A stretch of DNA of 64,000 nt from Eucommia ulmoides (lineage: Eukaryota; Streptophyta; Magnoliopsida; Garryales; Eucommiaceae): assembly GCA_016647705.1 (NCBI GenBank), contig CM028332.1, positions 31,439,300 to 31,503,299 on the forward strand, written 5' to 3'. Below the pieces are notes generated by a model, which was given only the letters and a program-made list of their open reading frames with translations, did not search any database and had not been told where the DNA came from. Within the stretch, counting starts at the first letter, position 1. Every line of letters begins with the position of its first letter. The position numbers and the translations under genes were made by a program. Below, one piece after another: positions 21,931-55,542 of the stretch.

Positions 21931-24860
21931 AAGTCAGCTGATCAGTGAGCTAATAGATGGTGGCCACCAGGTTCGCCATTGCAATGCTCGGTACGTCAAG
22001 GTAATTTACAGGGATAATTCTTTTCAGGGTATACTCCACCATCAAGGCGATGTTTTCCAGTGCGTCGGCGTACCTGTTCTCTTCCCAAGAAATTTAGGTC
22101 CCTTAGATTTTCTCAAAAATTTTCATAAGCGCCCTCACTTTCTCTGAGAAGGTGAATATGCTCGGGTCTTTGGCCATGCAATCGTCGTTCACTTGGTTGA
22201 CCACAAGTTGGGAGTCACAGAAGACCAATAGAGCTTGTACTTTGAATTACCTTGCCAAGCAGAGACTAGCAAGCAAGGCTTCGTACTTGATAGGTGTGAT
22301 TCACCTACGTATTTTCAAACCAAATTAAGTTAGTTTTCGAGCGTTTATATAGTATTTTATTACCTTTTAATTAGTTTTTGTACTTTTTGTATAAATCAGG
22401 TGTGTGGGGCAAAAAGATAGGAAACTGGAGTGAAAACGATGAGATCGAACCAAAAGCGATTGAAGAATGGTGGAAAAACAAGTTCGGAGGCAAAATTGTG
22501 AAACAAGCCCACCGCCGTAGTGTCCAGACCACCGCCACGGTAGTGAAGATACTGAGAAAAGAATAAATGTTACTGATGGACCACCACCTAGGCAGAGAAT
22601 TCCACCTCCTAGGCGAAAATCCGGCAGAGAAAACAAAAGTAGACTACTGACAGCCCACTGCCTAGGCGGAGAATTCTACCGCCTAGGCAGAAATTCAGTA
22701 GATTGTTCTTCCTAAGCCACCATTGTCTTCATCGCCGCGGTGATCACAAACCGACCTACCTCCACCTAGGCAGAGAATCCCTTCACCTAGGCGGAGAGCC
22801 TCTGCACAACCTAGATATTTGTTTAGATATTTTTGAGATATTTTGTCTATAAATATCATCCACTCCCCTTTTCTTGAAACTCCCCGGCCATTTGGGCACC
22901 TTAGGCCATATTTAGGATAGGTTTAGGAGTTTTATAGGTGGAGCTCACATCCCAAAGTGGAGAAGACGGCAAATCGATCGTTGAGCATTCTTAGCGGTTT
23001 ATCTTCGGACGAGGCTAAGTTCTTTGGTTGTTTTTCCTTATTTCTTTATATGAGGATCACGTGAGCATGTTTAGATTGTTATTTCATTGTAAATATGGCT
23101 AAGGCCATAGCTAAACATGGATTGTAGTAGGGATTAACACTATATTTATAAATACATTGTTTGGATGATTTCGGTGTTTCATTTGTGATTGTTCTTCATA
23201 GTTTGATTGTATTTATCATATTATTTGTTTATCATGATTAGTTAGATAAATGGAGAATACGGGGTTTTGACAAACCTCGGATTCGGATTAGGGTAAACAA
23301 ATGCCACGATTCTATAACCTGGTCAGGTTTTGAATCATGGGCAATCGATGACGTTGGGGCAAGACTCACGCGACCTAAGGTCATTAAAATGTTGAGGGAG
23401 ATTTCTTCATTAACTCAAAGTTGCATTATATCTCCCATCTTACACTCAGGAGAGGTGGGGATAGAGTTTTAGAATGGAGATTGTCGATGGGGTAAATACA
23501 ACGCACGATCCAATGACCCAGTCGGGAGTTGAATTGTGTGCAATCAATGACGGTGAGCGAGGCTCACGTGACCTAGGGTCGTTAAGATATTGAGAAGGAC
23601 TTCTTCGTTGACTCGAAGTCATGTATTCCCCCGTCTTAAAATCAGGAGATGTGGTAGTGGAGTTTACGTACCGAGGTTGTCAAATAGGTCGAATACCGTA
23701 AACGTGAGTAAATCGAAATCGAACACATATTTGTAAACACGTTAATCCCTAGGCAATTCTTTACCCTAAAACATATTACCATATTAATGTAGTTAATTTA
23801 GGTTATATTAATATTAGTTTAATTAATTAATTACATTTATTTTTCTCCTAGATAAAGTTAGGTCACGACAAACGTGGTATTCGATAGTAACGACACCAAT
23901 CCTATGGATAAGATAACCCGATCTTAATGATCACACTATACTAAAACTTAGACCTCGTATACTTGCAAGTGTAAGTAGCGGCGTATTTCACGCGCTACCA
24001 GTACTCAATCTAGTTGTTTGTAGCCTTGAATCCGAGCCTGAGAATGTATTCCACAACTTTTTTATCTGGGGCTACCAAAATCATTCTCACCCCACAGTTG
24101 CTCACATTGGACGATCCATCTGTGTAGAGCTGTCATGCTCTTGGGCCAAAATCGCAGGGACTAGAGAAGGTCCCCGAGTCTCCTATAGGACGAAGTTCCC
24201 CGACGATTTACTTTTGGATCCTGGTAGTCCATGAAGGTGAATTCTGTGATAAAATCAGTGAGGACTTGGCCTTTAATGATCGTTCTCGAATAGTATTTTA
24301 TATTAGAATTGTCCCAGCTCAGATCTGTATTTCATCAGCCTTCCTAAAACGTCAAAAGAGTACAAGATTTACCTCAGGGGTTGATCAGTCGAAACCACAA
24401 TTGTGGGCATCGAGTAACACTATCGGAGCTTTCTGGAGGCGATCAGCAAGGCATAAGCCAACTTCTCGAACTTTGAGTACCTTATCTCAACATCCAGAAG
24501 AACTCTGCTAGAGTAATACATTGGGCTCTCGACATCGTTCTCTTTCTGTACCAGGGTTGTACTCACTGTAGTTGCAGAAGCGAAAACGTATAAGTACAAC
24601 TCCTTCTCTCCCCTTTCGGGATGCTGAGTAAGGAAGTCGATGAGAAGTAGTACTTCATATCACATAATACAACTTCATACTCATTCGCCCAAAAGAAGTC
24701 TTTCTTCCCGTGGAGCACCTTAAAAAAGGGAAGACATCACTCTGAATATTTGGAGATGAACCAGTTCTAGGTTGCAAGCCTGTTGGTCGGCATTTGGATT
24801 TTCTTCTTTGAGTAGGGCGGGGAAATACTGAGTAGGGCATTGATCTGGTCAGAGTTGGCA
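21931..24860 (-). pseudogene. pol: Element D RNase H, split by a solo LTR
   Basis: The N-terminal part (24860-24006) encodes broken segments such as KYYFSSTSLLSIPKGE and SRTIIKGQVLTDFITEFTFMDYQD, as in gypsy RNase H. After the solo LTR (22288-24000) it resumes near 22280 with YEALLASLRLA, VFCDSQLVVNQVN and RYADALENIA, the second half of the domain. Several stops occur in both parts. Its normal role is to degrade the RNA strand during reverse transcription. Confidence 0.8.
22288..24000 (+). mobile_element. Solo LTR of the element B family
   Basis: It begins TGATAGGTGTGATTCACC and ends CGCGCTACCA. The perfect 5-bp target-site duplication GTACT lies at 22283-22287 and 24001-24005. Neither primer binding site nor internal sequence follows, so the element was reduced to one LTR, presumably by LTR-LTR recombination. 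A TATAAATA box is at 22848-22855. The presumed U3 carries several copies of the CCGCCTAGGCGG-type palindrome. Its insertion splits the RNase H coding region of element D. Confidence 0.95.
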
Positions 24861-25655
24861 TCAATTCCGCGTGGAGAGACCATATACCAAATAAATTTTC
24901 CTACAGATACACCGAAGATGCACTTGGTGGGGGTTGAGTTTCATACAGTGAACCCTTAGTTTATCAAAGAATGTCTAGAGGTACGCTAGGTGATCAGGAG
25001 CTCGCAAGCTCTTCTCTAGCATATCGTCGATGTAAACTTCCATAGTTTCACCGATCTCCTTTTTGAACATTTTGTTAACCAACCTTTGGTAGGTGGCTCT
25101 AGCATTACGCAATCCAAAAGGCATCCCATTGTAGTAGTATGTTCCCATGTTCGTAATGAAAGATATTTTTCTCTTTTCAAGTGGGAACAATAGAATCTGG
25201 TTGTAGCCGGCGTAAGCATCCAGAAAGCTCAAGAGGCTATAGCCTACAGTGGCATCGATGATTAGATAATACCTCGGTAAAGAAAAGAAGTATTTGTGGG
25301 AGGCCTTATTGAGGTCGTTAAAGTTTACGTAGAGTCTCAACTTGCCCACGGCCTTAGTACCAAGCACGATATTAGAGAACCAATCGGGAAACTTTACCTC
25401 CTCCACAACGCCAGACTTGATTAGTTTTTTCATTTCCTCTTCGATGATTTTTTGGAGCTCCGAATGGAAATTCTTCATCTTTTTCCTGACTGGAGGATGA
25501 TGCGGGACTACATGGAGCATGTGCATGGCCATTCTTGGATCGATTCCCAGAAGTTCATAATAAGACCAGGAGAACACGTCAATATTTTCCCCTAGTAGCT
25601 TCGTAAGCTCAGCCCACTGTTCCGAGGCGAGCTTGGCTCCTATTTTGACCATCAT
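24861..25655 (-). pseudogene. pol: Element D reverse transcriptase
   Basis: The open part (25655-24975, 226 residues) begins with VFSWSYYELLGIDP and continues through the RT core. It includes VRKKMKNFHSELQKIIEEE, LRLYVNFNDLNKA (motif with RxYVDFNDLN in active relatives), FLDAYAGYNQI, MPFGLRNARATYQRLV and the catalytic box VYIDDML near 25020. An in-frame stop then follows before the thumb region, which continues with FDKLRVHCMKLNPTKC. The enzyme copies element RNA into DNA. Although the YIDD box is preserved, several conserved residues are changed and the polyprotein is broken. Confidence 0.9.
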
Positions 25656-25849
25656 TTATTTAAGGGTTGGGTGGTTGGATACCTCAACCAAGTCTTCATG
25701 TGGGCAGGGGCTTGACTCGTCATCCTTGGGGTCATCAATCGACACTAGGACCTTTTTGGCATCTAGGGTCATGAGCTCAGAAGTTACTAGCTTAGACCCT
25801 TTGAGTCCAGACCCTATATTTGATTGTTATTTCTTCTAGTCTAGTACCT

Positions 25850-26470
25850 TCCAAGCATAAGCTCATGATGATTTCTGATTACCACTGACTTCTCCCACTC
25901 CTTGATAGGTGGAGAATTTCATAACCTGGTGGTACGGAGAGTAGAAGGCCTTGAGGGATGAAACTGTTGGGCACCCCATTATAGCATTATAGTGTGACAA
26001 CCTATCCACTACCAGGAACTTGGTCTACACCGTCGATGACCTTAGATTTATTCTGAGAATGATAGAAAGATATATCCATTTGAGGAAGTTAACTACTTAT
26101 TCCCCAAAACCAATAATGAAAGACTTATTGGGCTGTAGGGCACCGATCTCCGTCTTCAGTTTGTCAAAGGCCTACTTGAAGATGATGTCGACCAAACTTC
26201 CTCCATCAACCAGGATGCACCCCATCCTGTAATGACTGACTAGGTCCATGATGACCACGGTGTCATCGTGGGGCATATGCATTCCTCAGAGGTTAGCTTC
26301 GCTGAAGGAGACGATGTTGTGCAAGGAAGCATCAACTGCACTCAACTCATACACATCCTTGTCAGCTTTCATCTTAGTTTCCTACTTGTGCCTCTTCCTG
26401 AGGGATGACGTTTCTCTCCCGGAGCTGAATCCATCGTGGATGACATTGATCTCATCGTCCATGCGCTAGT
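25850..26470 (-). pseudogene. pol: Element D protease-containing region
   Basis: Frames on the minus strand give segments typical of the Tat/Ogre protease region. MHMPHDDTVVIMDLVSHYRM (about 26280-26220) and ILVDGGSLVDIIF (about 26215-26180) correspond to the family pattern with ILVDTGSSADILF; the catalytic DTG here reads DGG. TKFLVVDRLSHYNAIMGCPT (about 26025-25970) follows, as in active relatives. Several stops are present. Confidence 0.7.
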
Positions 26471-27960
26471 GATTGTCCTCGACCTCAACCATCTGGGGCT
26501 AAGAACGGTTGTGGTTTTCTCGTCCTCTGTAGGCCCGAGTCTCTCCTAGTGGTCATCCTCGTCGAGATGTCCCCGGTCTTCTCTTCATAAATATTTTCTA
26601 AGATAGCCTCTCTGGATGAGGGATTCAATCTCCTACTAGTGCTGGAAAAATCTTTATGTCGAGTGGCTTTGAACTTGCTAGAACTCTCAGTACTTTATTA
26701 TAGACCTCCCAAACGACTTCATTCTCAAGGGCTATAGAGGAAGGAATAAATCATGCCTTGAGTTTTAAGCAAAGATGGGAGACACCGAGGCTGTAAGCAG
26801 AGTGAACCTTTGCTGGTGACACCCTAGGAGAGGAAATGGTATCTTGTCCCCAGGTAAGGCTCCCAATCTCCTTTCAACTTGTAATTTTTTCGAGCCTTGG
26901 GCTTGATTTGAAACTTTATTCTTCGGTACCTTCTACTTGTTAATTCATTCCCTATCTCTTCTAGTTTCAGCACGGAGGTCAGCATTATAAAACCTAGTCC
27001 CACGATCCAGAGATTAATCGAGAGTGGGGGCAAGATTCAAACAAAGGTCATAAGATAACCTCTGATGCCGGAGCCCATCAACAAAGGCGTTCAGTGTCAC
27101 GATTTCAGGGAGTTTATCGCATGTGTTGGCTTCTCAGTTAAAGATAAAGGACATGGGCCATTGTCTTCGGCCTGGGTCGGGAATGACTTAAATGAGCCAG
27201 AAATAACAGCTTGAGCTCTCGGAAAGTGGAGATGGATGCTGTCCTCATGCCTTGAAACTAGGACCTCACTGCCCCTGAAAGGGTAAAGGGAAAGGCTTTG
27301 CATCGTAAGGTTATAACGGCCACACGCATGTCCATATGAGACCTGAGCATGGGCATGTGGTAGATTTCATCCGATGTCCAGTCATATGGACTCATTTGGG
27401 GGTGAGCAAAGCTTCTTGACACTACTTTTTCCTGAATGTCTTCCACAAATTGAGACATCACCTCCACAATAACGCCTTGTCCTACCCGACCTCCGTGCAC
27501 CTCTTGGAGGCAGGTTTCCATGTCAATAAAGCGACGTTCCACGACTTCTACTGCTTAGGTCTCCCCCCATATATGACTACCCATAGCTTGACCGCTAGGG
27601 GACGCTGATAGGTCTCTTACTGCATGTCCACGCTGTAGAGGAGTTGGGGATCTCGACATTACTAAAGGACCTTCTCCAGTCCTATAGACTCGTGGTCGCA
27701 AGGCAAAGGGCAATCCCCAGATGCATTCCCTTTCGGAGATGCCAAACGAACATCGTAGTGTTACGGTTGCTCCTCGGGCCTCGCAGTCTAGAGAGTTGGT
27801 CCGCTCTGGACAAGGAGCAACAATAGGTACCTGAGAATATCAATCCGAGATGCTTCTGGAACTCCTGAGGTCCGCCCTGCAAAATCCACGGAGGGCAGGT
27901 AGATGGCCCTGCCTAGTCTTGGGGGGTAGTTATCCTCGTTAGTGGGAGCTGAGTGGTGTG
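26471..27960 (-). pseudogene. gag: Element D gag
   Basis: The best preserved part (27542-27258) has PYDWTSDEIYHM and CKAFPFTLSGAVRS, the retrotransposon gag core of Tat-lineage elements, where PYDGTSDPEEHL and CKAFPLTL are usual. Beyond an in-frame stop, FRELKLLFLAHL and TPEIVTLNAFVDGLRHQRLSYDL continue the domain. A basic, degenerate C-terminal part extends to about 26471. It would form the virus-like particle; the frame is broken many times. Confidence 0.75.
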
Positions 27961-28117
27961 ACTTCCGAGCTTTCGACGAATCCGTTGAGTTCTCCAGAAG
28001 AAGACAATTGCTCGCAGCAGAAGCTTCAGTTCTGTGCCTATTTCTGTGACTAGACCTTGAGATCATCCAGTCTTAGCCGAGCAAGGAGTAATGATTAGGG
28101 AAAGACTTTTTGCATAG

Positions 28118-28135
28118 TTCCCACAAACGGCGCCA
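28118..28135 (-). promoter_or_regulatory. Element D primer binding site
   Basis: On the minus strand the site reads TGGCGCCGTTTGTGGGAA, 3 bases inside the LTR edge. This resembles the tRNA-Arg-type site reported for Ogre/Tat elements; the tRNA assignment is from memory and moderate. Confidence 0.65.
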
Positions 28136-28138
28136 AAC

Positions 28139-28684
28139 TGTTGGTTTCCAAAATGGCGAATACTTCGAGTACAGTCCATCTAGGAATAGGTGGATCCTCT
28201 TGCTGAGGTGGAGTTGCTGAGTCAGAGTTGGAACTAAAAATTCTTCAAGTAAACTATAACTGACCACCTGAGGTCTGGCTAGTTGGATTCTAGATTCCTG
28301 CGCTTTAGGGAGTTATACCTGCACAAGGCTTGGTCGAGATTATAAGAGCTCAGAGAGAAAATATTCCTAAAACGCGTCAAGTATGTAAATGAGTATTGAG
28401 CGTTACCTTGGGGTTGTATTACCCCTGGTATTTATAGGCATTGAATATTATTAGATTTACCTAATCGGGCCTAAGCATGGTTAATTAGGCAAAACCATGC
28501 GTTTAACCGATAATTTAGGGCGTTCAGGAGATATTCACTAGGCTTGGGCTTGGGCTTTTGGGCTCATTTGGAAAAGCCCACAGGCCTGTAGAGACGAGTT
28601 GGTAGAGAAGCTCATATATCTGTAGAGTTCGATAGGAGAAACGATTGAAATGGTGTGCCGGTGGAAAATCGATTCTCCCTTGAC
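28139..28684 (-). repeat. Element D 5' LTR
   Basis: On the plus strand it starts TGTTGGTTTCC at 28139, next to the primer binding site. The other boundary is placed at the CA of CCCTTGACA (28684) and is approximate. Most of it (from 28222) is repeated in inverted orientation at the right end of the palindrome. Confidence 0.6.
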
Positions 28685-31600
28685 AATACTATTCGTGTTT
28701 AGATGCTCTCAAAAGAGACTACTCAAATCATGCCTCGAGAATTACTAGCTTTGAGGTTAAAATGCCAAAAAGAGGTAATTGATTTGTTAAATATAATTTA
28801 ATATTGATTTATTATTTTAATGTTAATATAGTTAGATTCGGCTTTAAGGAATTGGATATTAATTGTGATTAATTTTTTTTATTCCGCTACGCAAATATGT
28901 TGTTTTTAATATCCATTCCCTTCAGGTTGTAAGACAAAAAACAGTACAAGAATATAAGAGAGAAGTGGAAAAAAATCAGCCTAGGGGCAGTATAGTGTGG
29001 TCTCTCCAATGTATAGACTATCCAGGGTTGAAACCCTTGACTCCCTTTTTTCCTATATTGTACTTTGATCCCAGAACTTTACATACTCTAGAATTACTAC
29101 CCATTCCTTTTGAAGCACTATCTAGATTTCTATGTCTAATTTGTGTGTGACCTATTGGGTTGTTACTTATTTAATTAATTAAAATTGGAACAATTCCAAT
29201 TTTGCGCTTATAAAGAAAAATTCTACACGACATCTCCACTAATTGTGTGTCATGTCTACCTGTATATCATAAGTATATCCAACTAATAAAAAATTTATCA
29301 AGAGAACTTCCACAATTGTAATTTCTATACTATACTATCTTTATATCTTCTATTCCGAAAAGAATCAACATGGTATGGATTATGTCAAAAACAAAACTTG
29401 TTTATCTATATGGGTTAATAATATAATTCTTTTATGATAGTAATTGGAATCTCATCCTAATAGTCACATTGTCTAGGATGGAGTCTTCGTTGAATTATAT
29501 CAAATTTAATCATATAGGACACATCCCTGTTTACTAAGTGTAATAGATGTAGACATCTCATTTTCTCTCTCTTTCTTTGCAAGATAAAAGATAAAAAAAA
29601 AAAAAATTAAAAAAAAATGCAATAATGTATATATGGGGTCTAAAATAAAAATTCGAACAAACTTTGAACTGACGTTTAAAGGGATGAATTGATGCCTTAG
29701 ATTCTTTGTTTAATTTTCTCTTAATGTTTAAATATAAGGAAAGTAAGAAAATCAGCAATTTGGAAGAAATCCAGCAAAAATAAAAGTTTCGGGCCAAAAT
29801 TAAAAGTTTGTAAAAATTATAGTCGGACTAAATTGATTAAATTAAAAGTATTTTTTTCAAATGAATATCACTCTTAATATAACTAATTTCGGTTTCCACC
29901 CAAGAATTTTAAGAAATCTTGACTTTTACACATACTTTTATTTTGACACCCAAAACTCTAGTTTTCATCGATTTAGTCAAATTGGCGGCCAAAAAAATTT
30001 TATTTTTCGAAATTAAATGTTCCGATCACTTAAGAAATGTTTTAATTATATTATTTTATTGTCAATTTATAAAATAAAAAACCAAAAAGTCAGCAATTTT
30101 ATCAAAGAAAAATGCCTAAAACATCAAAATCACTTCTAGCACACCCCTCGGAAATAAGATGAAGCATTGGATGCTTCTTAGAAGTTGAGATAGCCAAGAT
30201 TGAGCATCTCTAGGATATTTTCATAAAAGGAATAAACATATCAATATCTTGTGCAATCATCTATAAAGTAACCAAGTACTTTTGTTTTACCTTTAGTTTG
30301 TATTAATTTTAAATAAAACATCCATATGAATTAATTTTAGGTTTTGTTTTTCTTTTAATTGAAAGGAAACAATTGTGAGTCAATTTTGACTCAAGACAAG
30401 TCTCACATTTATGGTATTATTTTGGCATTTAGTAATTAAATTTATATTGTCGGCCTAAAGATCTACCCGAGAAGGGAGTGAATTAAGTAGTTATTGTTGG
30501 TATCCCAAAGTGGCATACACCTCGAGTATGATTCAATAAGGAATTGGTAGGTCCTCCGCTAAGGTAGATTTGCTGAGTTGGAATTGGAGCTGGAAATTCT
30601 TCAAGTGAACTATAACTAACCACCTAGGGTCTGACTAGTTGGAGTCCAGAGTCTAGAGTCCTGTCCATCAGGGAGCTGTACCTGCACAAGGCCTGGCTGG
30701 GATTTGTCACGGTGAAACCCCTCCGACATGAGAGTAAGAGCTAAAAGAGAAAAGGTTATAGAAACCCCGCGGGCCTCCGTCAAGCCTGTGGAGACAAGTT
30801 CGTAGAGAAGCTTGGAGAGCTATGGAATTCTGGAGAACAAACTAACTGGAGCGGTGTGCCAATAGAGAAAAATGGCTAAGTCCCTGAAGTTGTCCATCAA
30901 AGGGCACGACACAAAATTCTGGGTGGCAATACCCCTGCAAGGCACACTGATCTTTCCTAGGTACAAATGAGATTCTAGGGAATGAACCTTGGTCCATGTA
31001 TGCTCCTGCGTAGCACTTTAAGAGGTGGAACATGTCCATCATCATCGTGACATAGCCATATTGTAGAGTCTAAAGTGCCACGCAGGAGCATACATGGACC
31101 AAGGTTCATTCCCTAGAATCTCATTTGTGCCTAGGAAAGATCAGTGTACCTCGCAGGGGTACTGCCACCCAGAATTTTGTGTCGTGCCCTTTAATAGACA
31201 ACTTCAGGGACTTAGCCATTTTTTTCTGTTGGCACACCGCTCCAGTTAGTTTGTTCTCTAGAACTCCACAGCTCTCCAAGCTTCTCCACAAACTTGTCTC
31301 CACAGGCTTGACGGAGGCCCGCGGGGTTTCTATAACCTTTTCTCTCTGGGCTCTTACTCTCATGTCGGAGGGGTTTCATCGTGACAAATCCCAGCCAGGC
31401 TTTGTGCAGGTATAGCTCCCTGATGGACAGGACTCCGGACTCTGGACTCCAACTAGTCAGACCCTAGGTGGTTAGTTACAGTTCACTTGAAGAATTTCCA
31501 GCTCCAATTCCAAATCAGCAAATCTACCTTAGCAGGAGGACCTACCTATTCCTTATTGAATCATACTCAAGGTGTACACCACTTTGGGATACCAACAATA

Positions 31601-32454
31601 ACTACTCAATTCACTCCCTTCTCGGGTAGATCTTTAGGCCGACAATATAAATTTAATTACTAAATGCCAAAATAATACCATAAATGTGAGACTTGTCTTG
31701 AGTCAAAATTGACTCACAATTGTTTCCATTCAATTAAAAGAAAAACAAAACGTAAAATTAATTCATATGGATGTTTTATTTAAAATTAATACAAACTAAA
31801 GGTAAAACAATAGTACTTGGTTACTTTATAGATGATTGCACAAGATATTGATATGTTTATTCCTTTTGTGAAAATATCCTAGAGATGCTCAATCTTGGCT
31901 ATATCAACTTCTAAGAAGCATCCAATGCTTCATCTTATTCCCGAGGGGTGTGCTAGAAGTGATTTTAATGTTTTAGGCATTTTTCTTTGATAAAAATGCT
32001 GACTTTTTAGTTTTTTATTTTATAAATTGACAATAAAATAATATAATTAAAACATTTCTTAAGTGATTGAAAGATTTAATTTCGAAAAATAAAAAAAATT
32101 TGGCTGCCAATTTGACTAAATCAATGAAAACTAGAGTTTTAGGTGTCAAAATAAAAGTATGTGTAAAAGTCAAGATTTCTTAAAATTCTTGGGTGGAAAC
32201 CGAAATTAGTTATATTAAGAGTGATATTCATTTGAAAAAAATACTTTTAATTTAATCAATTTAGTCCGACTATAACTTTTACAAACTTTTAATTTTGGCC
32301 TGAAACTTTTATTTTTGCTGGATTTCTTCCAAATTGCTGATTTTCTTACTTTCCTTATATTTAAACATTAAGAGAAAATTAAACAAAGAATCTAAGACAT
32401 CAATTCATCCCTTTAAACGTCAGTTCAAAGTTTGTTTGAATTTTCATTTTAGAC

Positions 32455-32497
<43 letters not shown>

Positions 32498-33891
32498 CAT
32501 TTTTTTTTAATTTTAATTTTATCTTTTATCTTGCAAAGAAAGAGAGAAAAAATGCAATGTCTACATCTATTACACTTAGTAAATAGGGATGTGTCCTACG
32601 TGATTAAATTTGATATAATTCAACGAAGACTCCATCCTAGACAATGTGACTATTAGGACGAGATTCCAATTACTATCATAAAGGATTTATATTATTAACC
32701 AATATAGATAAACGGGTTTTGTTTTTGACATAATCCATACCATGTTGATTCTTTTCGGAATAGAAGATATAAAGATAGTATAGTATAGAAATTACAATTG
32801 TGGAAGTTCTCTTGATAAAATTTTTATTAGTTGGATATACTTATGATATATAGGTAGACATGACACACAATTAGTGGAGATGTCGTGTAGAAATTTTCTT
32901 TATAGGCGCAAAATTGGAATTGTTCCAATTTTAATTAATTAATTAAGTAACAACCCAATAGGTCACACACAAATTAGACATAGAAATCTAGATAGTGCTT
33001 CAAAATGAATAGGTAGTAATTCTAGAGTATGTAAAGTTCTGGGATCAAAGTACAATATAGGAAAAAAGGGAGTCAAGGGTTTCAACCCTGGATAGTTTAT
33101 ACATTGGAAAGACCATACTATACTGCCCCTAGGCTGATTTTTTTCCACTTCTCTCTTATATTCTTGTACTGTTTTTCGTCTTACTACCTGAAGGGAATGG
33201 ATATTAAAAACAACATATTTGCGTAGCGGAATAAAAAAAATTAATCACAATTAATATCCAATTCCTTAAAGCCGAATCTAACTATATTAACATTAAAATA
33301 ATAAATCAATATTAAATTATATTTAACAAATGAATTACCTCTTTTTGGCATTTCAACCTCAAAGCTAGTAATTCTCGAGGCATGATTTGAGTAGTCTCTC
33401 TTGAGAGCATCTAAACACGAATAGTATTGTCAATGGAGAATCGATTTTCTACCGGCACACCATTTCAATCGTTTCTCCTACCGAACTCTACAGATATATG
33501 AGCTTCTCTATCAACCCGTCTCCACAGGCCTGTGGGCTTTTCCAAATGAGCCCAAAAGCCCAAGCCCAAGCCTAGTGAATATCTCCTGAACGCCCTGAAT
33601 TATCGATTAAACGCATGGTTTTGCCTAATTAACCATTCTTAGGCCCGATTAGGTAAATCTAATAATATTCAATGCCTATAAATATCAGGGGTAATACAAG
33701 CCCAAGGTAACACTTAATGCTCATTTACATACTTGACGCGTTTCATGAATATTTTCTCTCTGAGCTCTTACAATCCCGGCCAAGCCTTGTGCAGGTATAA
33801 CTCCCTAAAGCGCAGGAATCTAGAATCCAACTAGCCAGACCTCAGGTGGTCAGTTATAGTTTACTTGAAGAATTTTCAGTTCCAGCTCTGA
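28222..33891. repeat. Giant inverted repeat (palindrome), arms about 2.8 kb, 50-bp spacer
   Basis: The left arm (28222-31020) and right arm (31071-33891) are reverse complements along their whole length; the spacer is 31021-31070. By eye the arms are roughly 97% alike, with substitutions and small indels. For example, a 61-residue chance ORF in each arm (28965-29150 and 33148-32963) differs at three residues. A TA microsatellite (32456-32490) is expanded only in the right arm. The left arm starts inside the LTR of element D and the right arm ends at the corresponding base, so the right copy lacks the outer 83 bp of that LTR. Arm content from outside in: D-family LTR, AT-rich non-coding DNA, a copia-LTR edge, and a second D-family LTR. 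Confidence 0.93.
30495..31020. repeat. Second D-family LTR inside the left palindrome arm
   Basis: It starts TGTTGGTATCCC and shares with 28139-28684 an ordered series of motifs: CTGAGTTGGAATTGG, AATTCTTCAAGT, CTATAACTAACCACCTAGGG, ACCTGCACAAGG and GGTGTGCC. It is clearly diverged from that copy. Its inverted partner in the right arm runs from about 31071 to 31597. Just before it (30455-30494) is a short match to the copia LTR edge at 41488. Confidence 0.65.
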
Positions 33892-34088
33892 TTAAAAAAT
33901 GAAAAAAAAAAAACATAAAAAAAATAAATTATTTTGCCCTTTTATTCTGTTACTTTTGACCGAATTTTTTACAGAAAAATCATTTAAAAATGTGTTGATA
34001 AATAGAGGGTTTAAAATGAAATGTACAAACTTAGAATGACTGCTTAGAAACATGTCAATTGTTAGAGGGTTTAATATGTACTTTTCCC
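33892..34088. other. AT-rich junction between palindrome and element E
   Basis: A-rich low-complexity sequence followed by TAGAGGGTTTAA repeats (34005 and 34065). No gene seen. It truncates the 3' end of element E. Confidence 0.5.
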
Positions 34089-34600
34089 AATAAAAAATGA
34101 TGTTGAATCTTTATGTGCTTGTTTCGTGAATGTTGTATTGGATTCTTATTTAAGCAAATAGCACTTTTGTTATCGCAATAGATAGGTACTTCCTCCATGT
34201 ATATTCCAAAATCATATAATTATTATTTAATATATAAAATTTGTGCGCAACAATTACCATCTACAATATATTATGCCTCAGTTGTAGATAAAGGTAATTG
34301 AATTATGTTTCTTGCTAAACCATGAAACTAAAGTATGTCCCAAAAACTGACATGAATCGCTTGTGCTTTTACGCTCAACTTTGCATCAAGCAAAATCAGC
34401 ATCGGAGTAACTAATCAGTTTAAAGTCACTCCCCCAGGATACCATAATCCTAAATCACTTATTCCTTTTAAATATCGAAAGATTCTCTTGACAGCTATTA
34501 GATGTGATTCTTTCAAACAAGATTGAAATCTTGCGCCCAAGTATACACTAAACATAATATCAGGTCTACTAACAGTAAGATACAACAAGCCACCAATCAT
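34089..34600 (-). pseudogene. pol: Element E RNase H and end of RT
   Basis: 34600-34415 encodes MIGGLLYLTVSRPDIMFSVY and HLIAVKRIFRYLKGISDLGL, the copia segment between RT and RNase H. The RNase H continues with ADFKLISYSDADF-like sequence near 34420 and ends with VPIYCDNKSAICLNKNPIQH and SRNKHIKIQHHFL (about 34190-34090), with stops in between. This is the normal C-terminal end of copia Pol. Confidence 0.8.
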
Positions 34601-35347
34601 ACCTCAATACATTTTCTCATTGATGTTTTTACCCAAATCATCTTTTTCTATTTTTGTAGTTGTTACCATGGGAGTTTTGTATTCTTTAGCACCATTAAGG
34701 TCATACTTTTTCAATAACTCATCAGTGTACTCGGCCTGATTAATAAAAAATTCTTCTTTAATTTGTTTGATTTGTAACCTAAGATAAAAGGTTAATTCTC
34801 CTATCATACTTATTTTAAACTCGACCTACATAATCTTGGCATACTCTTGACAAAAATCCTCATTAGTAGAATCGAAACTAATATCATCCACATATATTTG
34901 TACTAATAGGATTTCATATTCATTTTACTTGATAAACAACGTTATATCACTTAAACCACGTCGAAAACCATTTTCAATTAGGTATCGGTTAAGTCTCTCA
35001 TACCAAACTCGAGGAACTTGTTTGAGTCCATATTTAGACTTTCGAAGTTTAAAAACGTGATCGGGTAATTTATCATTTTAAAACCCAATGGTTGTTCAAA
35101 TTAAACTTCCTTAGTTAAAAATTCATTTGGGAATACACATTTGACATCCATTTGAAATAGTTTGAAATTTTGTGAATATTCAAATTCCAATAACATTCTA
35201 ATAGCTTCCAATCTCACCACAGGTGCATATGTCTCATCATAATTAATTCTTTTTTCTTGATTATAACCATATGCTACTAATCTTACTTTGTTTCTAATCA
35301 CCATACATGTTCCATCTTTTTTATTACGATAAACCCATTTAGTATCA
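34601..35347 (-). pseudogene. pol: Element E reverse transcriptase, C-terminal part
   Basis: The segment resumes directly after element F with KWVYRNKKDGT, then VRLVAYGYNQEKRINYDETY and APVVRLEAIRMLLEF (35304-35101), the start of the copia RT core. The catalytic box QIYVDDISFDSTNE is intact near 34895-34855. LTFYLRLQIKQIKEEFFINQ and DELLKKYDLN follow (34807-34604). Frameshifts and stops separate these parts. Confidence 0.88.
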
Positions 35348-36202
35348 ATACACTACAACAAAAATGGATTTTAGCGGCAATTCTATTAGCCGCTAATACT
35401 GCAGTCGCTATAGGTTATAGCGGCTAATTTATAATTGCCACTAAGATTTAGCGGCTATTTAGATTTCATATAGTGGCAAATTTAAATGCCATTAAAAATA
35501 AATAAAAAAATATAAATTAATTATTTATTTTTATATTTAGTGACCAATAATGATTTAGCCGCTAAATATAAAAGATTTAGCAGCTAATTTAGATTTTGTA
35601 CAGCGACAAATTTAAATACCATTTTTTATATTTAGTAGCAAATAATGACTTAGCCGGTAAATGTTTTACATTTACCTACTATTGTATTTTTTAATTTTTC
35701 ATTTGGTAGCATATAAATATATAGCCAATAAACGCTTTAAGATAATAACGAAATAAGATGAACTTTATTAATTACCAACAAGAATTCAAATGAGAATGCA
35801 AATAATTGAAAACATAAACCTGATATCCCAAGGAAATGCTGAAAAAATTAGATCAATGAAATAATATTGAATTGAACCCCTAATTTAAGATTAATCAATA
35901 CAATCTAAACTAATAATTTTCTAAATTCTCTTGGAAGAGTGAAACCCACATCAAACACTCAATTAGCCAAAAAAAAAAAAAAAACTACACCTGTATGTAT
36001 ACAAAAACATAAAAAGTTTTATGGTGCTTCATAGAATATAACCGGGAAATGCTAAACACAACTAAAATGACCATCATATCACCTTTTTAACTCATTTGCA
36101 AGTAAAAATCATCTCACTTTTTAAACTTTAAAATCTAGAAACATCAGAGACAACCAATAAAGAAGTAAATAAGTAAGAGAAGAACCAGATGTATATACTT
36201 CA

Positions 36203-36332
36203 GAATAGGTGATTCTCAAGGCTTCCTCGGAACATGAACTCATAAACAAGCAGCCTGTGATCATCCTCACAGCAAATTCCAACCAACTTAACCAAATCAG
36301 GATGTCTGAGCTGCCCAAGGAAGTTAACATCT
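36203..36332 (-). pseudogene. Captured receptor-like cytoplasmic kinase exon (RLCK VII/PBL-RIPK type)
   Basis: The minus strand is open as [20 protein letters not shown] followed by [20 protein letters not shown] and HLF. This is the N-lobe exon of RLCK VII kinases (kinase subdomains III to V, including the hinge LVYEFM). An AG acceptor precedes it (CCAGACAG at about 36342-36333 on the minus strand), and the match stops at HLF, where the family exon ends. Catalytic loop, DFG motif and the rest of the kinase are absent. The parent protein is a membrane-associated immune or developmental signalling kinase. The fragment itself cannot be an active kinase; it lies inside CACTA element F. Confidence 0.85.
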
Positions 36333-36989
36333 GTCTGGCATGGGCAAACCATCATCAAACCAACAAATTAAAAATCAAAGAATTCTATGAGAAATGGAGG
36401 AAAAAAAAATTTAAATAAAAATAATGCCTTTAATGAAGAGCTACAGTGCAACCCAAGGATATGGGAATTATTTCAACTAGAAAACCATCATAAATTGTTG
36501 TATTCTCCAAATGGAAATTGCACTTTACAGTAGACTTCTAAAGGGTTCAATTTCGGATATGCGTTCAGCAACAGTCATGGGCTAAACAACTTCCTTTGAA
36601 ACAAGGTAAACAAACAAATAGCGCTTGACAGATGCTAAGATACAACAAGACAGTGTTAAACAGCTAGGCAACTCAACTTGGTTCCGTATAAGGTATGGGT
36701 TAGAATTCTTAAACCACCAGATTTGGCGTGAATAAACTACAACATCCAAATAGTAAAAATGGAAAAGAGAATATTAAGTCTACATAGATATCAATATAAC
36801 CCTTAAGGTAAGTTGGATCATTAATACTCCCTCGCATAAATCCAGAGAAGCTCCAATACAATGTATAAAAGGGAGACAAAAGGCAACAAAATTGTAAGTG
36901 CAACAAAGATTGGAAGTAGGGATGCAGACTAAAATAAGAACAAACTCACCAGCCACTCTCGGTGGACCTGAAGGTAGAGTTTGATTTAC

Positions 36990-37098
36990 CTTCAACTCGT
37001 CTCCAAGCTCGACGGTACAGTTTTAGGGCTTCAAGAAACTTATTGTGCTCTTTATCTGTCCAGTTTAATTTGGTTATGATGTACGCCTTTCTCACTTG
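36990..37098 (-). pseudogene. Captured MYB-domain exon of a REVEILLE/LHY-type gene
   Basis: The minus strand encodes [20 protein letters not shown] followed by [17 protein letters not shown], the N-terminal half of the single SHAQKYF-type MYB repeat in circadian regulators of the REVEILLE family. Two residues usually between K and N (a short RE-type pair) are missing. The exon ends at GAAG|GTAAAT (36990), the expected exon end after the W..IE segment with an intact splice donor. The second half with the SHAQKYF signature is not present. It lies in the same orientation as the kinase exon inside element F. Confidence 0.8.
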
Positions 37099-37449
37099 TT
37101 AAGTTTCAACCTATATGGGCTCAAAAATTCCATATCATGTCTATTCAAGAGAATCGATACTTAATTTGATTGTCCAATTAGAGGTTAAGACGATATTCTT
37201 TACATAATATTAGCTAAGATAATACTGAATCGTTTCTAGGGCTCATTCAATTCCGCACAACTAATACAGACCAGCATGGGAGACAAATAAAGGAGCAAGA
37301 ACAAGAGACGCCAGCGAACAGAAACAAGTCTCACAATGCTTTGTATTAAGAAATCAATGAATTAATAGAATTTCAACAAAAAACATCATCAATTTAATCA
37401 AATTCAGCAGCAATTAAGCAAAATTCAACTAAAAAAGACCAATTGAAAT

Positions 37450-37660
37450 AAACCCTAGAAATTATTAACCTTTTCTCGAAGAGTGAAGATATTAACCCCG
37501 ATGCTATCTGCAATCTTCGATAATATGGTTAGAAAGCGTCCTTCGAATCCCCTGCCATATCTTCGACTTCAAACACAATGTCGAAACTCTTTGAATCGGC
37601 GACGATGACTCCCATGACGTCCTTCTCTTTAGATCTGATGAGACAGTGTTTGCTATCATG
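37450..37660 (-). pseudogene. Unidentified coding-like segment in element F
   Basis: On the minus strand SKEKDVMGVIVADSKSFDIV and FEVEDMAGDSKDAF read open, then after a +1-type shift FLTILSKIADSIGVNIFTLR follows with a plausible continuation. The composition looks like real protein-coding sequence and differs from the surrounding AT-rich DNA. I did not recognise the family. It may be a third captured exon. Confidence 0.35.
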
Positions 37661-38297
37661 GATATGAAGCCTCAGAATTGAAATTAGAATTCAACCGAAC
37701 ACTACAGTAGAAGTCACAAACAATGTCATCGATCAATAAATGTTTATAAATCTTATTGGAGATGGAGAACTGGATGTAGGAGACATGGGTGTTCTTCTGG
37801 CCGCGCTGTTGCCCTGTTGTCGTCGAATTTTCTATCAACGACGGTTCAGGCGGTGGGAACTGATCGATTGATCAAGGTCATAACCGCCACTTACAGAGAG
37901 GAAGAGCAACTGTGCAGTTCAATTTCTTTTGGGATTGAAGGCTTGCGAGAGAGATTGATTTAGAAATAATTAAATTAGGGTAGTTTTAGTAGGTGGATAT
38001 GAAAGAATAAAAAATAGAATTTAAAAATATTTAATTGTTGTTTTTAATTTTTGTTTTTAGTAATAATTGAATAATTTATTTGTTTATTACTTTGATTATT
38101 TTTATTTTTTTTAATTTAAAGAGAAGGATATTGAAATTTTTGCACCAAAAATTGGAACCAAAATTATAACATTTATCGGCATTTAGAACAAATTTGCAGC
38201 AATTAAATAATTTGTCACTAAAAATACATCATTAGTGCCTATTTTTTAACTGTCGCTAAAATAATTGCCGCTATAAGTAATTTTTCTTGTAGTGATA

Positions 38298-38600
38298 ATA
38301 GGAAAAAAGTCAGGTCTGAGAACTAGAGACCAAATTTTATTTCTCCCAAATTGAAGTAATTTCGCTTGCATCGCAGATATCCAAGATTTATCGGTTAAAG
38401 TCTTGTTTACATTCTTAGGTTTAATTTCTTGTAGAAATGAAAGATTAATTATATGTCTAAGGGAAGATATTGTACTTCCACATTTCTCGAAATTACTAAT
38501 AATTTCTTTTACCGAGTGTCCCAAAACTGTTTTTATAGCTCATGGTAATGTCGTCCCTTCATTTTGTGGCTTCTTATCCTTTGGATTTGATTGTTATTTT
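38298..38600 (-). pseudogene. pol: Element E reverse transcriptase, N-terminal part
   Basis: NVNKTLTDKSWISAMQAKLL followed by QFGRNKIWSLVLRPD (about 38410-38310) is the canonical start of the copia RT domain. It is cut by element F at the ATA duplication and continues at 35347. Confidence 0.85.
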
Positions 38601-39425
38601 CTTATTTTCACTCCTAGGTTCTTTTTTCCTAATCATTATACCTGCATCATTATCATCATCACTATCTGAAGCATACCAAAGGAAAATACTATAATCTGAT
38701 TTGGCATCAAATTTATCTAAATTATTCTTATCATTTAAAACGGAACATTTACATCCAAAAACTTTAAAATAAGAAATATTTGGAGTTTTTCCATTCTAAA
38801 TCTCATAAGGAATTTTATTAAAACCTCTCTAGATAGATACTCTATTAATAATGCGACATGCACTACTTACTGCTTCGGGCCAGAAATATTTAGGTAGATT
38901 ATTCTCATTCAACATAGTGCTGACTATTTCTTGAAAGGTCATGTTCTTTCTTTCCACAACACCATTTTGTTGTGGTATTCTTGGTGCGGATAAATTGTGA
39001 GAATATCCATGTTCATCACAATAACTAATAATCTCATCATTTTTAAATTTTTTACCTCTATTCCTACGAATATTAATTATGCATGATTGTTTCTCATTTT
39101 GCACACGTTTACAAGATTTGGGGAAAACAAATTTCATCTTACTTTTCTTGAATAAGAAAAATACCTATGTTAGTCTAGAGTAATCATCAACAATCACAAA
39201 TGTATAAAATTTTTCTCTTAAACTAGCAATGACATTAGGGCCAAACAAGTCAAGATGAAATAGTTTAAGACACTTTGATGTGAATGCATGCAATTTCTTC
39301 TTGAATAATGATCTAGATCGCATCAAATTGACATGCATCACATAGCTTATCTTAATATATTTTATAGCAGGCAATCCATGTACTAGATTTTTCTTAGACA
39401 AATTAAAAATTAACCCCATACTTAC
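38601..39425 (-). pseudogene. pol: Element E integrase
   Basis: The pre-integrase and core start is at 39419-39165: LSKKNLVHGLPAIKYIK, FHLDLFGP with the first catalytic Asp, and FVIVDDYSR. The next part (39137-38829) reads INIRRNRGKKFKNDEI, where active enzymes have SD before the Gly-rich turn, so the second catalytic Asp is replaced by Asn. It continues with SAPRIPQQNGVVERKN, carrying the catalytic Glu, and LPKYFWPEAVSSACRIINR. The zinc-binding Cys pair is degraded. The stretch down to 38601 is a frameshifted C-terminal part. Confidence 0.85.
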
Positions 39426-39599
39426 ATGCCCAATACATCTATATCATAACCAACTATTTTTAAGTGAAGCATTTAAGCATGATAAATTTTGTACCCAAAA
39501 ATCCTCGAATGAACACATGTAAACATTTTCAACGCATGATGAAACAAGTAATATACTACTATCACGCCTATTCTTAATATGGATTTATTATTATCAAAT

Positions 39600-39870
39600 A
39601 TAACATTATATCTTTTGTCACATAACTAACTTATACTAAGCATATTATATTTGAGACCGTCTACTACTAACACATCTTTAATAGTAGTACATTCATTACC
39701 GATATTACCAAGATTGATAATCTTACATTTTGCGTTGTCTCCAAAAGTCACATAACCTTCGTCTTTTGGTGTTAAAGACGTAAATTTAGGTTTTTCACCC
39801 GTTGTGCCGAGAAAAATCACTATCTGGGAACCATTTATTCTTTTCTATTAATGCTTTCAAAATAACCTGC
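39600..39870 (-). pseudogene. pol: Element E protease
   Basis: KWFPDSDFSRH (about 39835-39800) corresponds to the family pattern W..DSGCSRH, so the catalytic DSG reads DSD. It is followed by KFTSLTPKDEGYVTFGDNAK, and by LVVDGLKYNMLSIS near 39640. This copy is inactive by sequence. Confidence 0.8.
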
Positions 39871-39899
39871 AATAAGCACATCAAATAGTTCCTAAGTGA

Positions 39900-41030
39900 C
39901 ACTCAATCTAAGTGGGTCCAATCTTGTTAGCCGGAACAATTTTAGTTCCTTTAGGAACCCATACTTGTTTATATTTAGATAATCTTTGAAAACACATACT
40001 TACAATATGCCTCACAACATTACATCTAAAACATTTAACAAGATTTTTAGTTTCAGAAAAAAAAAAAAAAAAAATTATGAAATTTTTTTTGTTTAATATT
40101 TTTCTAAAAACCAATTCTAGCTTTATCAAAATTTTCTATTTAGCTTCCCAAAAGTATTTTCAAATTATGTTCACCAATCGTGAATTTGAGAACAATAGAA
40201 TGTAAATCCAAAATGTTGGATTTCAATTCATTTTAGATTCAAATTTAACCATTTACTTGTTAGGTGTATTGATTGTACTTTGTAGAGTATTTGTTTGTGA
40301 ACATTGATTTTTATAATCATGCGTTAATTCTTGATAGACATGAAATAGTTCATCAAAGTTTAAAGGACAAGAACTAGAGAACTTTGTTACCTTATCTCCA
40401 GTTTCCATCAGAGTAAGCATGGATGAATCGTCGCTATTTGATTTTTTAGAGCTGCTTGACTCCGAGTAATCCCAGATAATTTTCATAGACTTTTTCTTGC
40501 TCTTTTCACCTTTTTCTTTTATTTTATTTTTTATTCTTTGGCTTGGGACAATCAGATTGAAAGTAATTAGTTTTGTGATAATTATAGCATTTAACAATAT
40601 TCATGCTAAATTTTTTATTTCCATGGAATGTTCGTCGAGTTATATTTCTAAAATTTTTGTTGAGAAGCACCACATTCTCTTCTTGTTCAATATCAAATCT
40701 TGTATCATCACTATCATAATTTTCTTCATTATTTTGAGCTTTCAACGCTAGGGATTTCTTTTTACTGCTTCCTGATCCATCCTCAAATCCATGAATAGTT
40801 GTCTCATGGGTCATTAGGTTACCAATGAGTTCATCAATAATGTATTTGGTGAGATCCTTGGTTTTCTCAATTGTAGTCATTTTTGGTTTCCAAACTTTAG
40901 TCAACGATCTCAAAATATTTCGTACTTTGTCCTGAATGGAATATAACTTTTCGAGTTGGCTAAGACTGTTACAGATCTTGTTGAATCTAATGTACATTTT
41001 CAGAAATGTTTCTTCGTCACCCATTTTGAA
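39900..41030 (-). pseudogene. gag: Element E gag
   Basis: The UBN2-type gag domain (41024-40524) includes MYIRFNKICNSLSQLEK, LRSLTKVWKPKMTTIEKTKD and the Ser-rich GSGSSKKKSLALKAQ. A zinc-knuckle remnant CYNYHKTNYFQSDCPKPKNK follows; its His position is altered. A second open stretch (40597-40253) has DYSESSSSKKSNSDD and FDELFHVYQELTHDYKNQCS, a coiled-coil typical of copia gag. A further C..C remnant, CFRCNVVRHIVSMC, lies near 40030. Gag builds the cytoplasmic particle; frameshifts separate the parts. Confidence 0.82.
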
Positions 41031-41470
41031 CAGTTCGAATTAATGAACCAAGGTATTGATTTTGGATTGCTTTACTTGATTAGTTCCCTCATGTGTAATT
41101 TGTAATGCCTCTGAAGTTTCTTTCGCTGATTCGCAACCTGAAACCCTACTATACTTATTTGCATCTAAACAAAAAAAACAAAATGTTTATAGCTTGAGCA
41201 TTAATAGATAACCTTTGTTTATCATATAGATCCAATTGTTTTTTTTTAACAACTCCATTTTTTTCAGGAATATACGGGTCATCTTCAATGACTAACTAAA
41301 CATCATAGTTAGTTGCTTGTAGAAAGATAATCATTCTATCTTTCTAGAATGAATAGTTATTACCTATGAACAATGAAGTATGATGCATAGATTGTCCTTC
41401 AGGTTAAGCCTTTACATGGTACGCCATATGATCTTTTTAGCTAGGATTTTAAGTATATCAAGTTAAATCA

Positions 41471-41482
41471 GCTTTGGTACCA
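41471..41482 (-). promoter_or_regulatory. Element E primer binding site (initiator tRNA-Met type)
   Basis: On the minus strand TGGTACCAAAGC resembles TGGTATCAGAGC, the usual copia site, with two transitions. It lies 5 bases from the presumed LTR edge. Confidence 0.65.
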
Positions 41483-41487
41483 ATCGT

Positions 41488-43140
41488 TGACCAAAAGATC
41501 TACCTAAGAAGGGGGTGGGTAGTTATAAAAAATTAAACCATAAATTCAAATTCAAGATATCAATTTCTATAATTTATTATTATCATGTTAAGCAGCGAAA
41601 ATATGTTTAATTAAGTGCATACTCAAACCCAAAAAAAAAAGAAAAAGAACAATGCAGTACTCAAGAATTTATCCTGGTTCGGCAATCTAATCTTATGTCT
41701 AGTCTCTCGAGCTTCACAGGAATTTCGCAATCTACTAACTCCTTGATCCTTTTTTTAGGTAGGAACCAGATCCCTGATTCTTTTTGTAGACTTAGAATCA
41801 ACATTTACAACCTTGATTCTTTTCACACGCTCATAATCAACCTTTCATTCTCTCACACTATTACACTTATCTTTTTCCAGGCTTAGGAAGAACACTTACA
41901 AAACTCAAACTCTATTATAAGAAGAATTAAGACTTAATATTTTCAATGGCTAAAGATTAACCTAATCTTCTTAGCAAGATAAAGATCAAACCCTAATCCT
42001 TTTTTAGGCGAAAGATTAAACTCCAATTTTTTTCTCAGGTAAAAGATAAAAACCTAGCTACCTTGATTAGATACTGACATTAACGTGTCTAATCTACTCA
42101 AACTCATAAATACAAAAGATTTTCAAGTTTCTTTCAAGAAAGAGTTTCTTCCAACTCAATACAATTATACTCAATTAATGTCCTAAAATATTAAGTGATA
42201 GATTTAATGTGAGACACAAATCTGATTTAACCAATTGAAAGGACAAATAACAAATAATCAGATTTCTTAAATAAAATCATTTTGAAAGATTTTCACAAAA
42301 TAAGATTTGAAAATGATTTTTTCGCAAAACAACTTATCCAAGAAATTAAACAAATAATCTAAGGAAGCAATATAAACAGCTTGGAAAGATCTCACTGTAA
42401 TTCGTTGGAAACGATTATGATAATTCAATAGCGAACACAAACCGGTGATAAGAACTTTGAGCGCCTTTGATCAAGAACTCTTTCAATAATCTCACTTATA
42501 ATTTTCAGTGTAAAATTCTCTTTTAGAATTGCCAAAATCTAAATGATTTTTATTATCATTTTTTAATGTTACAGGTCTATATTAATAGACCTAAAACTAA
42601 ACCTATAACGGTTAGTTTTCAAAAAGTATGACATTAAATGAAACTTTAAGACACCATATGTCATATACCTTCAAAATAAGTATGTTCCATTTAAAAAATA
42701 GTTTTAGAAAAGCTCAATTTGGTCCTTAAAATTTTTCCAAATCAAAATCCTTAAGAATATAAAGTATTTCTATATATATATATATATATAAACCATTAAA
42801 TTCCCTTAAAAAAATCATTTAAAATCGTAAGAAAGAAGATAAATGCCCCCAAAAACTGAATCAGTTAAAAAAATTGACTGCGACCAGTTTGACCGAGCTT
42901 TACGCCGGTCGACCACCTCCTTTAACGGTCAATTTTATGACTGTTGAACAGCCATTGGTCGGTTGACCGATCCCATGGTCAGTTAACCGATTATACCAGG
43001 TCACCCATTTCATTTCCTTAAGCCACTACTTTGGTTATGACTTTACACTTCAAAAAATCATATTAGGACCCTAAACTTTTCAGTACACACATAAGACTTA
43101 TTCATTTTCAAGCGCCGTGCATAATCCTAATTCGAATTGT
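41488..43140 (-). repeat. Element E 5' LTR (right boundary approximate)
   Basis: The plus-strand edge reads TGACCAAAAGATCTACC next to the primer binding site. The following sequence has the layout of copia LTRs, with CTGGTTCGGCAATCTAA near 41673 and a run of GGTCGACC/GGTTGACCGA motifs at 42900-43000. The far boundary is a guess because the partner LTR is missing. Confidence 0.45.
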
Positions 43141-43475
43141 ATTAAGAGTATAAAGGTAATGAGTTGTTTTCACCTAATATTCTTAAATGTTTTCAATATT
43201 CTTCAAATTTTCATTACCTTCATTTTGTATCTGTTATGAATTCTTCAACGATTTTTCTTTTTAATCAATTTTTTTTCTCATTTTAATATATAAAAATTAA
43301 ATCTGAAGCCACTCAAAAAAAAATAAAAAATAAAAAAATATTAGCTCTATAAAAAATAAATTTTTAGTTGTATAGGAAAACGTTATAGATATACTCACAT
43401 CCCTCGAAAAATCATTTTTTCTTTCGTACACCGAAACCACGACTATTTGTTTATTGGAAGTGTAGTCCCTTCAAT

Positions 43476-43516
<41 letters not shown>

Positions 43517-44016
43517 AAAACAAGAAATCTATATGTATAGTGACGTAGAAGAGACACTGATGGAGATTTTGTAATTTGTTTTTTCAATTTTGTCCTTTTC
43601 TCTTTTTGCAATTTTTATTTGCTACTCAAAACTACACACACCCTTAAAGTTTAATTATATTTACATTTTCTCCTAACTTTTAATATTTCCATATTACTCT
43701 AACTTTTAATTTTTTAATGTTTTCATATTAATCTGAAATATATTACTTTTAATTTAATTGACTGATCTTATCTGTTAATTGTCACAATTTTAACAAATAA
43801 CTATACTTTGTACTCTTGCAGTTTATATTATTTTTTTAATTAATTTTCAAATTTTAAGAAAAGAAACTTAAATTGGCATTCTAATTAGCCACCTCAATTT
43901 TTAAATTAAATAAATAGTTGATTTTATTCTTACAATTTGAGTGTAGTTGGTTTTAATTCTTAATATTTTCATATTCATATATTCAGAATGAACAATCATC
44001 TCTCAATTTGTTATTC

Positions 44017-44880: not shown

Positions 44881-45357
44881 GTGTTGTAATTTATAAAATA
44901 GTGTCACTTTATATAATTCAAAACACTATATATAAGAAGTGAGTGTAAAAATCTAAAACCTATTGATAGTGGGTTGTGACATCTAAATTTGGGTTTATTG
45001 TAATTTTTTTATTTTTTATTTTTAAGATGCATTTATATGAGGTTTCATACTTGATTAAAATTAAATTAAGTTAATGTAGTATTTTTAACGAGCATATAAT
45101 TTAAAATTTGTATTCTAATATTTTTTATTTTTTTACATTTTCAAGTGTCCTCACGTTAACATAAAGTGTGAGATTAATTTCATTAGGAGTTTCGTGATTA
45201 TTTTTCTCAACAAATATTTTTTCACATACTTAAATTTTTTATCTTATAAAGATTTATTAGCGGCTTTAATTCAAACGTTTATTACTATATGCTATATTGG
45301 TACTCTAATGGTTATATAGTGTGGAAGGTAAAATGTTGAAAATCAGAAAACGGTTAG

Positions 45358-45380
45358 CACGTGCTTTGCACGGGACCTAG
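45358..45380 (+). other. Helitron-like 3' terminus
   Basis: CGTGCTTTGCACG can form a 5-bp stem with a 3-base loop. It is followed by GGAC and CTAG, with T after it, the arrangement of Helitron 3' ends (hairpin, then CTRR, target A/T). No 5' end could be fixed; a TC-start candidate near 44919 is not preceded by A. Confidence 0.4.
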
Positions 45381-47672: not shown

Positions 47673-47821
47673 TACGCACGTTTTCTCTCTCTCTCTCTCT
47701 CTCTATCTCAATTAGAATGAGATTTTTTATTCTTTGTCATTTTGTACCCTAAATTAAAGAAATTGGAATAAACACAGATGTATTTGTGTTTATAAATTAA
47801 AGAAATTCACACTTTAGATAT

Positions 47822-49463: not shown

Positions 49464-49469
49464 AGTTTT

Positions 49470-53150: not shown

Positions 53151-53155
53151 GATAT

Positions 53156-55536: not shown

Positions 55537-55542
55537 AGTTTT

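Follow-up and report, generated by a model that had tools for sequence, protein, structure and literature searches.

How does a genome come to carry 2.8 kb of its own sequence twice at one place, in opposite orientations, and does it make any use of the result? The question is raised by a 64,000-bp stretch of Eucommia ulmoides DNA (CM028332.1, positions 31439300–31503299, in a 947-Mb assembly of 391 contigs), here called the window, in which a 5.7-kb palindrome lies at 28222–33891. A preliminary description of this DNA had proposed an inverted duplication of a single chromosomal segment, whose transcripts could fold into a long hairpin and silence related transposons in trans. The palindrome is real, and we put at roughly two in three the probability that it was left behind by illegitimate DNA repair, as an inverted templated insertion of the neighbouring 2.8 kb that would now be decayed and unused.

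The palindrome and its joins

Comparison of the window with itself by BLAST gives one inverted match, of 28222–33891 against itself, with 94.79% identity over 5701 columns, spacer included, and alignment of the two arms agrees with it. A self dot-plot and an arm alignment had been suggested in the preliminary description, and its near-perfect palindrome, with arms of about 2.8 kb around a 50-bp spacer at 31021–31070, stands to the exact coordinate, as does its observation that the arms end at the same LTR (long terminal repeat) base, 28222 pairing with 33891. The parts are:

28222–31020, plus strand: left arm, 2799 bp (self-BLAST and arm alignment), probably the original copy; continuous on its left with a retrotransposon, element D
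31021–31070, plus strand: spacer, 50 bp, of which about 31030–31070 continues the LTR sequence of the right arm and about 31021–31029 matches neither arm
31071–33891, minus strand: right arm, 2821 bp (self-BLAST and arm alignment), probably the inverted copy

The arms are identical in 2690 of 2795 ungapped columns (Kimura two-parameter distance 0.039), and differ by 105 substitutions (3.8%; 77 transitions and 28 transversions, a ratio of 2.75) and by three indels of 25, 4 and 1 bp. The largest of these is a TA run at 32457–32492 that lengthens the right arm by 25 bp. A search of the whole assembly with the left arm, in which the best 40 of 5402 candidates were scored, shows the entire arm to be covered by this locus alone, twice and in opposite orientations, so the arms are one segment inverted at a single locus.

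The surroundings of the two arms are not symmetrical, and the features that bear on the joins are as follows:

24975–28137, minus strand: internal region of element D, with a gypsy-type reverse transcriptase at 24975–25655 (RVT_1, Pfam) and a primer-binding site (PBS) adjoining the LTR
33889–33891, strand not applicable: TGA microhomology at the outer right junction, common to the D LTR and the end of a fold-back element
33889–34099, plus strand: truncated fold-back terminal repeat, 211 bp, its outer end adjoining copia sequence at 34099
34100–41039, minus strand: decayed copia element, with Pfam matches to gag and reverse transcriptase, truncated at 34099 in what appears by eye to be the RNase H region

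On the left outer side the D LTR runs on to its own 3′ end at 28138 and is followed by a perfect 18-nt PBS at 28135 on the minus strand, whereas on the opposite outer side this LTR ends at 33891, abutting the fold-back terminal repeat. The copia sequence in turn stops at the outer end of that repeat, which thus interrupts the copia element. We assign 33889–34099 to a fold-back family because at two other loci (L049 and L052) two copies of it bound inverted elements of 1.4–1.5 kb; the genome contains 42 other matches to it, at 79–89% identity, of which seven begin at 33889, and TGATTAAAAAAT is present in three of the four terminal-repeat copies aligned in register. At the centre, similarity to a second LTR family (LTR2) continues from the right arm into the spacer, and most of the family matches extending to the centre begin at 31030 or 31033; in the five loci, out of eight, that were set out in register, the family continues with sequence unlike 31021–31029. 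The arms thus stop about 40 bp apart within LTR2, and the two joins carry the marks of filler (about 9 bp, 31021–31029) and of microhomology (the TGA at 33889–33891). Together with the asymmetric flanks and the confinement of the whole arm to this locus, these marks uphold the proposal that one chromosomal segment was duplicated in inverted orientation.

Each arm is a mosaic of old dispersed repeats, comprising a fragment of a D-family (gypsy) LTR, unclassified repeats, and the second, internally deleted LTR:

28138–28668, minus strand: D-family LTR with a TATA motif near 28430, its 3′ end complete and followed by the PBS, the 5′ part of the family missing; the palindrome begins within it, at 28222
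28701–about 28930 and about 28992–29540, no strand assigned: two unclassified dispersed repeat stretches, 63–80% identical to other places
29541–30240, no strand assigned: unclassified dispersed repeat of about 690 bp, 70–83% identical to other places
30495–31020, minus strand: LTR2, left-arm copy, lacking about 195 bp that include the TATA segment
31030–31600, plus strand: LTR2, right-arm copy plus spacer, also without those 195 bp and with some 50 bp of its 5′ end missing
33445–33891, plus strand: D-LTR fragment of the right arm, with a TATA motif near 33677 directed outward (to the right), truncated 84 bp short of the 3′ end of the LTR

The gypsy assignment follows from the reverse transcriptase domain of element D, its PBS and the common LTR similarity, LTR2 being itself related to the D LTR. 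The left-arm D-LTR fragment is taken to end at about 28668, beyond which most family matches do not go, and the stretch of about 690 bp belongs to a longer repeat, as several of its copies have 1.3–1.7 kb in common. Because both arms lack the same 195 bp of LTR2, that deletion is older than the duplication. The right-arm TATA motif (33677–33891) faces the copia element at 34100–41039 in the antisense direction.

The description of the palindrome as built from LTR fragments therefore holds for about one third of each arm (28222 to about 28668, and 30495–31020); the rest consists of unclassified dispersed repeats and of about 250 bp that have no other matches in the whole-arm and repeat searches, no search having been made with that stretch alone. 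The copia LTRs that had also been named among the contents were not recovered: when 28690–30500 was compared with 34000–47000 by word-7 BLAST, a comparison confined to the copia element of this window, a single 35-bp stretch at 80% identity (30446–30480 against 41483–41517) was found beyond A/T-rich and other short matches, and we did not take it for an LTR. No pair of LTRs bounding a PBS and a coding region lies inside the palindrome, the sole match to the 18-nt gypsy PBS with at most three mismatches being the one outside it, at 28135. Nor was a gene recognised in the arms, in which two of the six reading frames of at least 80 amino acids were scanned against Pfam without a match and the other four were not scanned. 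The whole window has no transfer RNA (scanned with the bacterial code) and no Rfam hit at gathering scores.

An inverted copy and its decay

We take the left arm as the probable original and the right arm as its inverted copy, because the natural order of D body, PBS and LTR is kept on the left. The events may then be pictured as follows. A break would have fallen between LTR2 and a fold-back transposon lying inside the copia element, and the adjoining 2.8 kb on its left-hand side would have been copied in inverted orientation into the gap, from the sister chromatid or via template switching. The start of the copy would have been joined to the trimmed left end with the filler of about 9 bp, and its end, inside the D LTR, to the remaining fold-back terminal repeat through the TGA microhomology; the intervening sequence would have been lost, namely the 5′ terminus of LTR2, the second half of the fold-back element and the end of the copia element. 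It is perhaps noteworthy for the origin, if only suggestive, that the break would fall within or close to a fold-back element, which is an inverted repeat in its own right. According to one account of plant break repair and T-DNA (transferred DNA) integration, filler DNA and microhomology are their usual marks, and polymerase theta is named there for templated filler (PMC8395108).

The differences between the arms tell something of what has happened since. Among CpG columns 17 of 106 differ, as against 3.3% of the others. In each of two polarisation tests 41 of the 105 mismatches could be assigned, 27 as right-derived and 14 as left-derived with the left arm as query, and 22 and 19 respectively with the right arm as query (35 and 33 were ambiguous, and 29 and 31 had too few copies). 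Derived changes are thus present in both arms, and C to T or G to A changes number 22 and 24 in the two tests, against eight and seven reversals. The pattern looks like that of methylated DNA losing its cytosines, and we infer that both arms have decayed as methylated, unused DNA since the duplication. The longest identical run, of 146, is not unusual (p 0.30) and gives no sign of gene conversion. At a plant substitution rate of 1.3e-8 per site and year the duplication would be about 1.5 million years old; with slower rates it would be older.

Several points weigh against this account. The sequence of the locus before the duplication was not found, so that the order of events is inferred; whereas the structure, the junction sequences and the pattern of decay are seen directly, the pathway of repair and the identity of what was lost are likewise inferred. 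For theta-mediated joining 2.8 kb would be a long insert, and the 9-bp filler could be a diverged piece of LTR2. The mismatches are slightly clustered (dispersion p 0.02 and 0.04), so that uneven mutation or some conversion may have occurred, and a lack of function is argued from the lack of any sign of one in the sequence.

A fusion of two broken sister chromatids would, moreover, leave the same marks, and this is the competing origin that we take most seriously, although we consider it unlikely. After such a fusion, of the breakage-fusion type, the chromosome would have broken again within the D LTR and been rejoined to the fold-back end. The positions in LTR2 at which the arms end differ by about 40 bp and a short filler lies between them, as expected of sister ends trimmed separately, and the microhomology fits the rejoining at the second junction; however, a second break just 2.8 kb away is required, as is survival of the dicentric. 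In the available sequence the two origins would look the same and are not distinguishable.

Could the palindrome act as a hairpin silencer?

The silencing role put forward in the preliminary description would require a transcript crossing the centre, giving 2.8 kb of double-stranded RNA from which Dicer-like enzymes would cut small interfering RNAs (siRNAs) that act in trans on D-family LTRs and other repeats, as has been proposed for Mu killer of maize. Its premise that such an RNA would fold is sound, since the inner 891 nt have a computed folding energy of −818.7 kcal/mol against a mean of −274.8 for 20 shuffles, far beyond chance, and the RNA would fold almost completely; moreover, perfect runs of at least 21 account for 2316 of the 2690 matched bases. 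Matching in trans is also possible as judged from 21-mers of the arms searched in 43 other loci: exact matches are found for 2.9% of those of the D LTR, 5.7% of those of the 690-bp repeat and 7.7% of those of LTR2, and with at most two mismatches 56–57% of the 21-mers in these three of the five arm segments match another locus. The other two segments have no exact 21-mers and about 1% with at most two mismatches, the 43 loci being without relatives of at least one of them. Two further points speak for transcription and, with the matching in trans, weigh against our own reading. The copia element on the right is directed toward the palindrome and broken off before its end, so that read-through is conceivable, and the head-to-head VIM4-VIM2 palindrome of Arabidopsis Cvi-0 is described as yielding siRNAs by read-through (PMC13213937).

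The remaining evidence is less favourable. The TATA motifs of the D LTRs, recognised by eye, are directed outward in both arms, LTR2 lacks its TATA segment, and stop codons abound in the copia frames. Promoters that face outward are compatible with siRNAs, as the comparison with VIM4-VIM2 indicates (PMC13213937), but the D-LTR relatives listed are 69–82% identical, with no recent target evident, and the decay is methylation-like. Selection for hairpin pairing was not seen, there being no bias to wobble-compatible changes among the mismatches (33 for a plus-strand and 44 for a minus-strand transcript, p 0.25). We therefore regard a silencer as improbable: nothing in the sequence indicates that the palindrome is used for anything, and the silencing role finds no support there. 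Still less probable is a more specific form of the idea, in which the copia element, having lost its 3′ end in the same rearrangement, would supply the read-through and a single repair event would have produced a hairpin silencer of many targets, D-family LTRs and unclassified repeats alike.

Fold-back elements, known palindromes and meaning

A reading of the whole palindrome as one large, mobile fold-back element is very improbable, even though the genome has such a family, with members palindromic from end to end (L048, 0.94 kb at 64%, and L050, 0.70 kb at 72%), and one terminal repeat of that family adjoins the right arm. In the window and 10 kb on each side the terminal repeat is present just at 33889–34099 and not at both ends of the palindrome, the search having otherwise yielded short matches, almost all of them to the A-rich portion of the repeat; the left arm passes straight into the D LTR and element D; and no second copy of the arm, nor of the whole palindrome, was seen among the 40 scored candidates. 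The absence of a left terminal repeat, and of further copies among the candidates scored, led us to reject this reading. The terminal repeats of the family are about 200 bp or more, and its target-site duplications show no clear common length in L048, L049, L050 and L052. Other inverted pairs (at least 150 bp, within 2 kb) were all found in five loci that had been chosen for the fold-back terminal repeat, in a non-random sample of 54 loci and the window (265,473 bases) in which eight loci contain parts of this palindrome. An assembly or sequencing fold-back, which the preliminary description had rightly argued against, is very improbable: sequencing reads are known to yield artefactual palindromes, but these arms differ by 3.8% substitutions with a transition/transversion ratio of 2.75, enriched at CpG, and by just three indels, and the flanks differ on the two sides.

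Elsewhere in the window, an LTR-like repeat of 1.2–1.7 kb is seen by self-BLAST in several copies (22283–24001, 47819–49562, 51422–53151, 53837–55641, 57394–59093 and, inverted, 446–1688), some carrying within them a tandem copy of about 195 bp. Close direct repeats at 10019–10564 and 11530–12380 (self-BLAST) are probably tandem arrays, and remains of a tnp2-type DNA transposon lie at 60718–62280 (Transpos_assoc, Transposase_21).

Several known systems resemble this locus in part. Mu killer (Muk) arose as an inverted duplication of part of MuDR by rearrangement and, as here, has the potential for a long hairpin RNA (PMC3440606). In that account Muk has genetic proof of silencing, measured transcripts and one active target element, with antisense transcripts in silencing plants and a promoter inside Muk rather than read-through from the flank (PMC3440606); the present palindrome is an old, diverged mosaic of repeats with outward TATA motifs, known from its sequence. 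VIM4-VIM2 and PAI4-PAI1 of Arabidopsis Cvi-0 are, like it, plant chromosomal palindromes, head-to-head or tail-to-tail (PMC13213937), and the head-to-head VIM genes would have outward promoters, as the D LTRs appear to have here. Those pairs, as described, carry genes and give measured siRNAs with effects in cis and in trans (PMC13213937), whereas no gene was recognised in the present arms. Junctions of plant break repair and T-DNA are reported with short filler, microhomology and an insert that is sometimes inverted (PMC8395108), all of which are found here, but the inserted copy at this locus is 2.8 kb long and old. With fold-back transposons, which have long terminal inverted repeats, it shares its inverted repeats and the terminal repeat next to the right arm; unlike them, it is a 5.7-kb palindrome without a left fold-back end and with no second copy among the candidates scored.

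Our verdict is that of an ordinary old rearrangement, a true inverted duplication of transposon fragments. Were the palindrome transcribed, it would count as a natural hairpin silencer of multiple repeats, a kind of which few proven cases are known. If it is ordinary, it is a readable example of repair making a kilobase palindrome out of nested transposons, with both joins still visible, and of the decay of such a palindrome.

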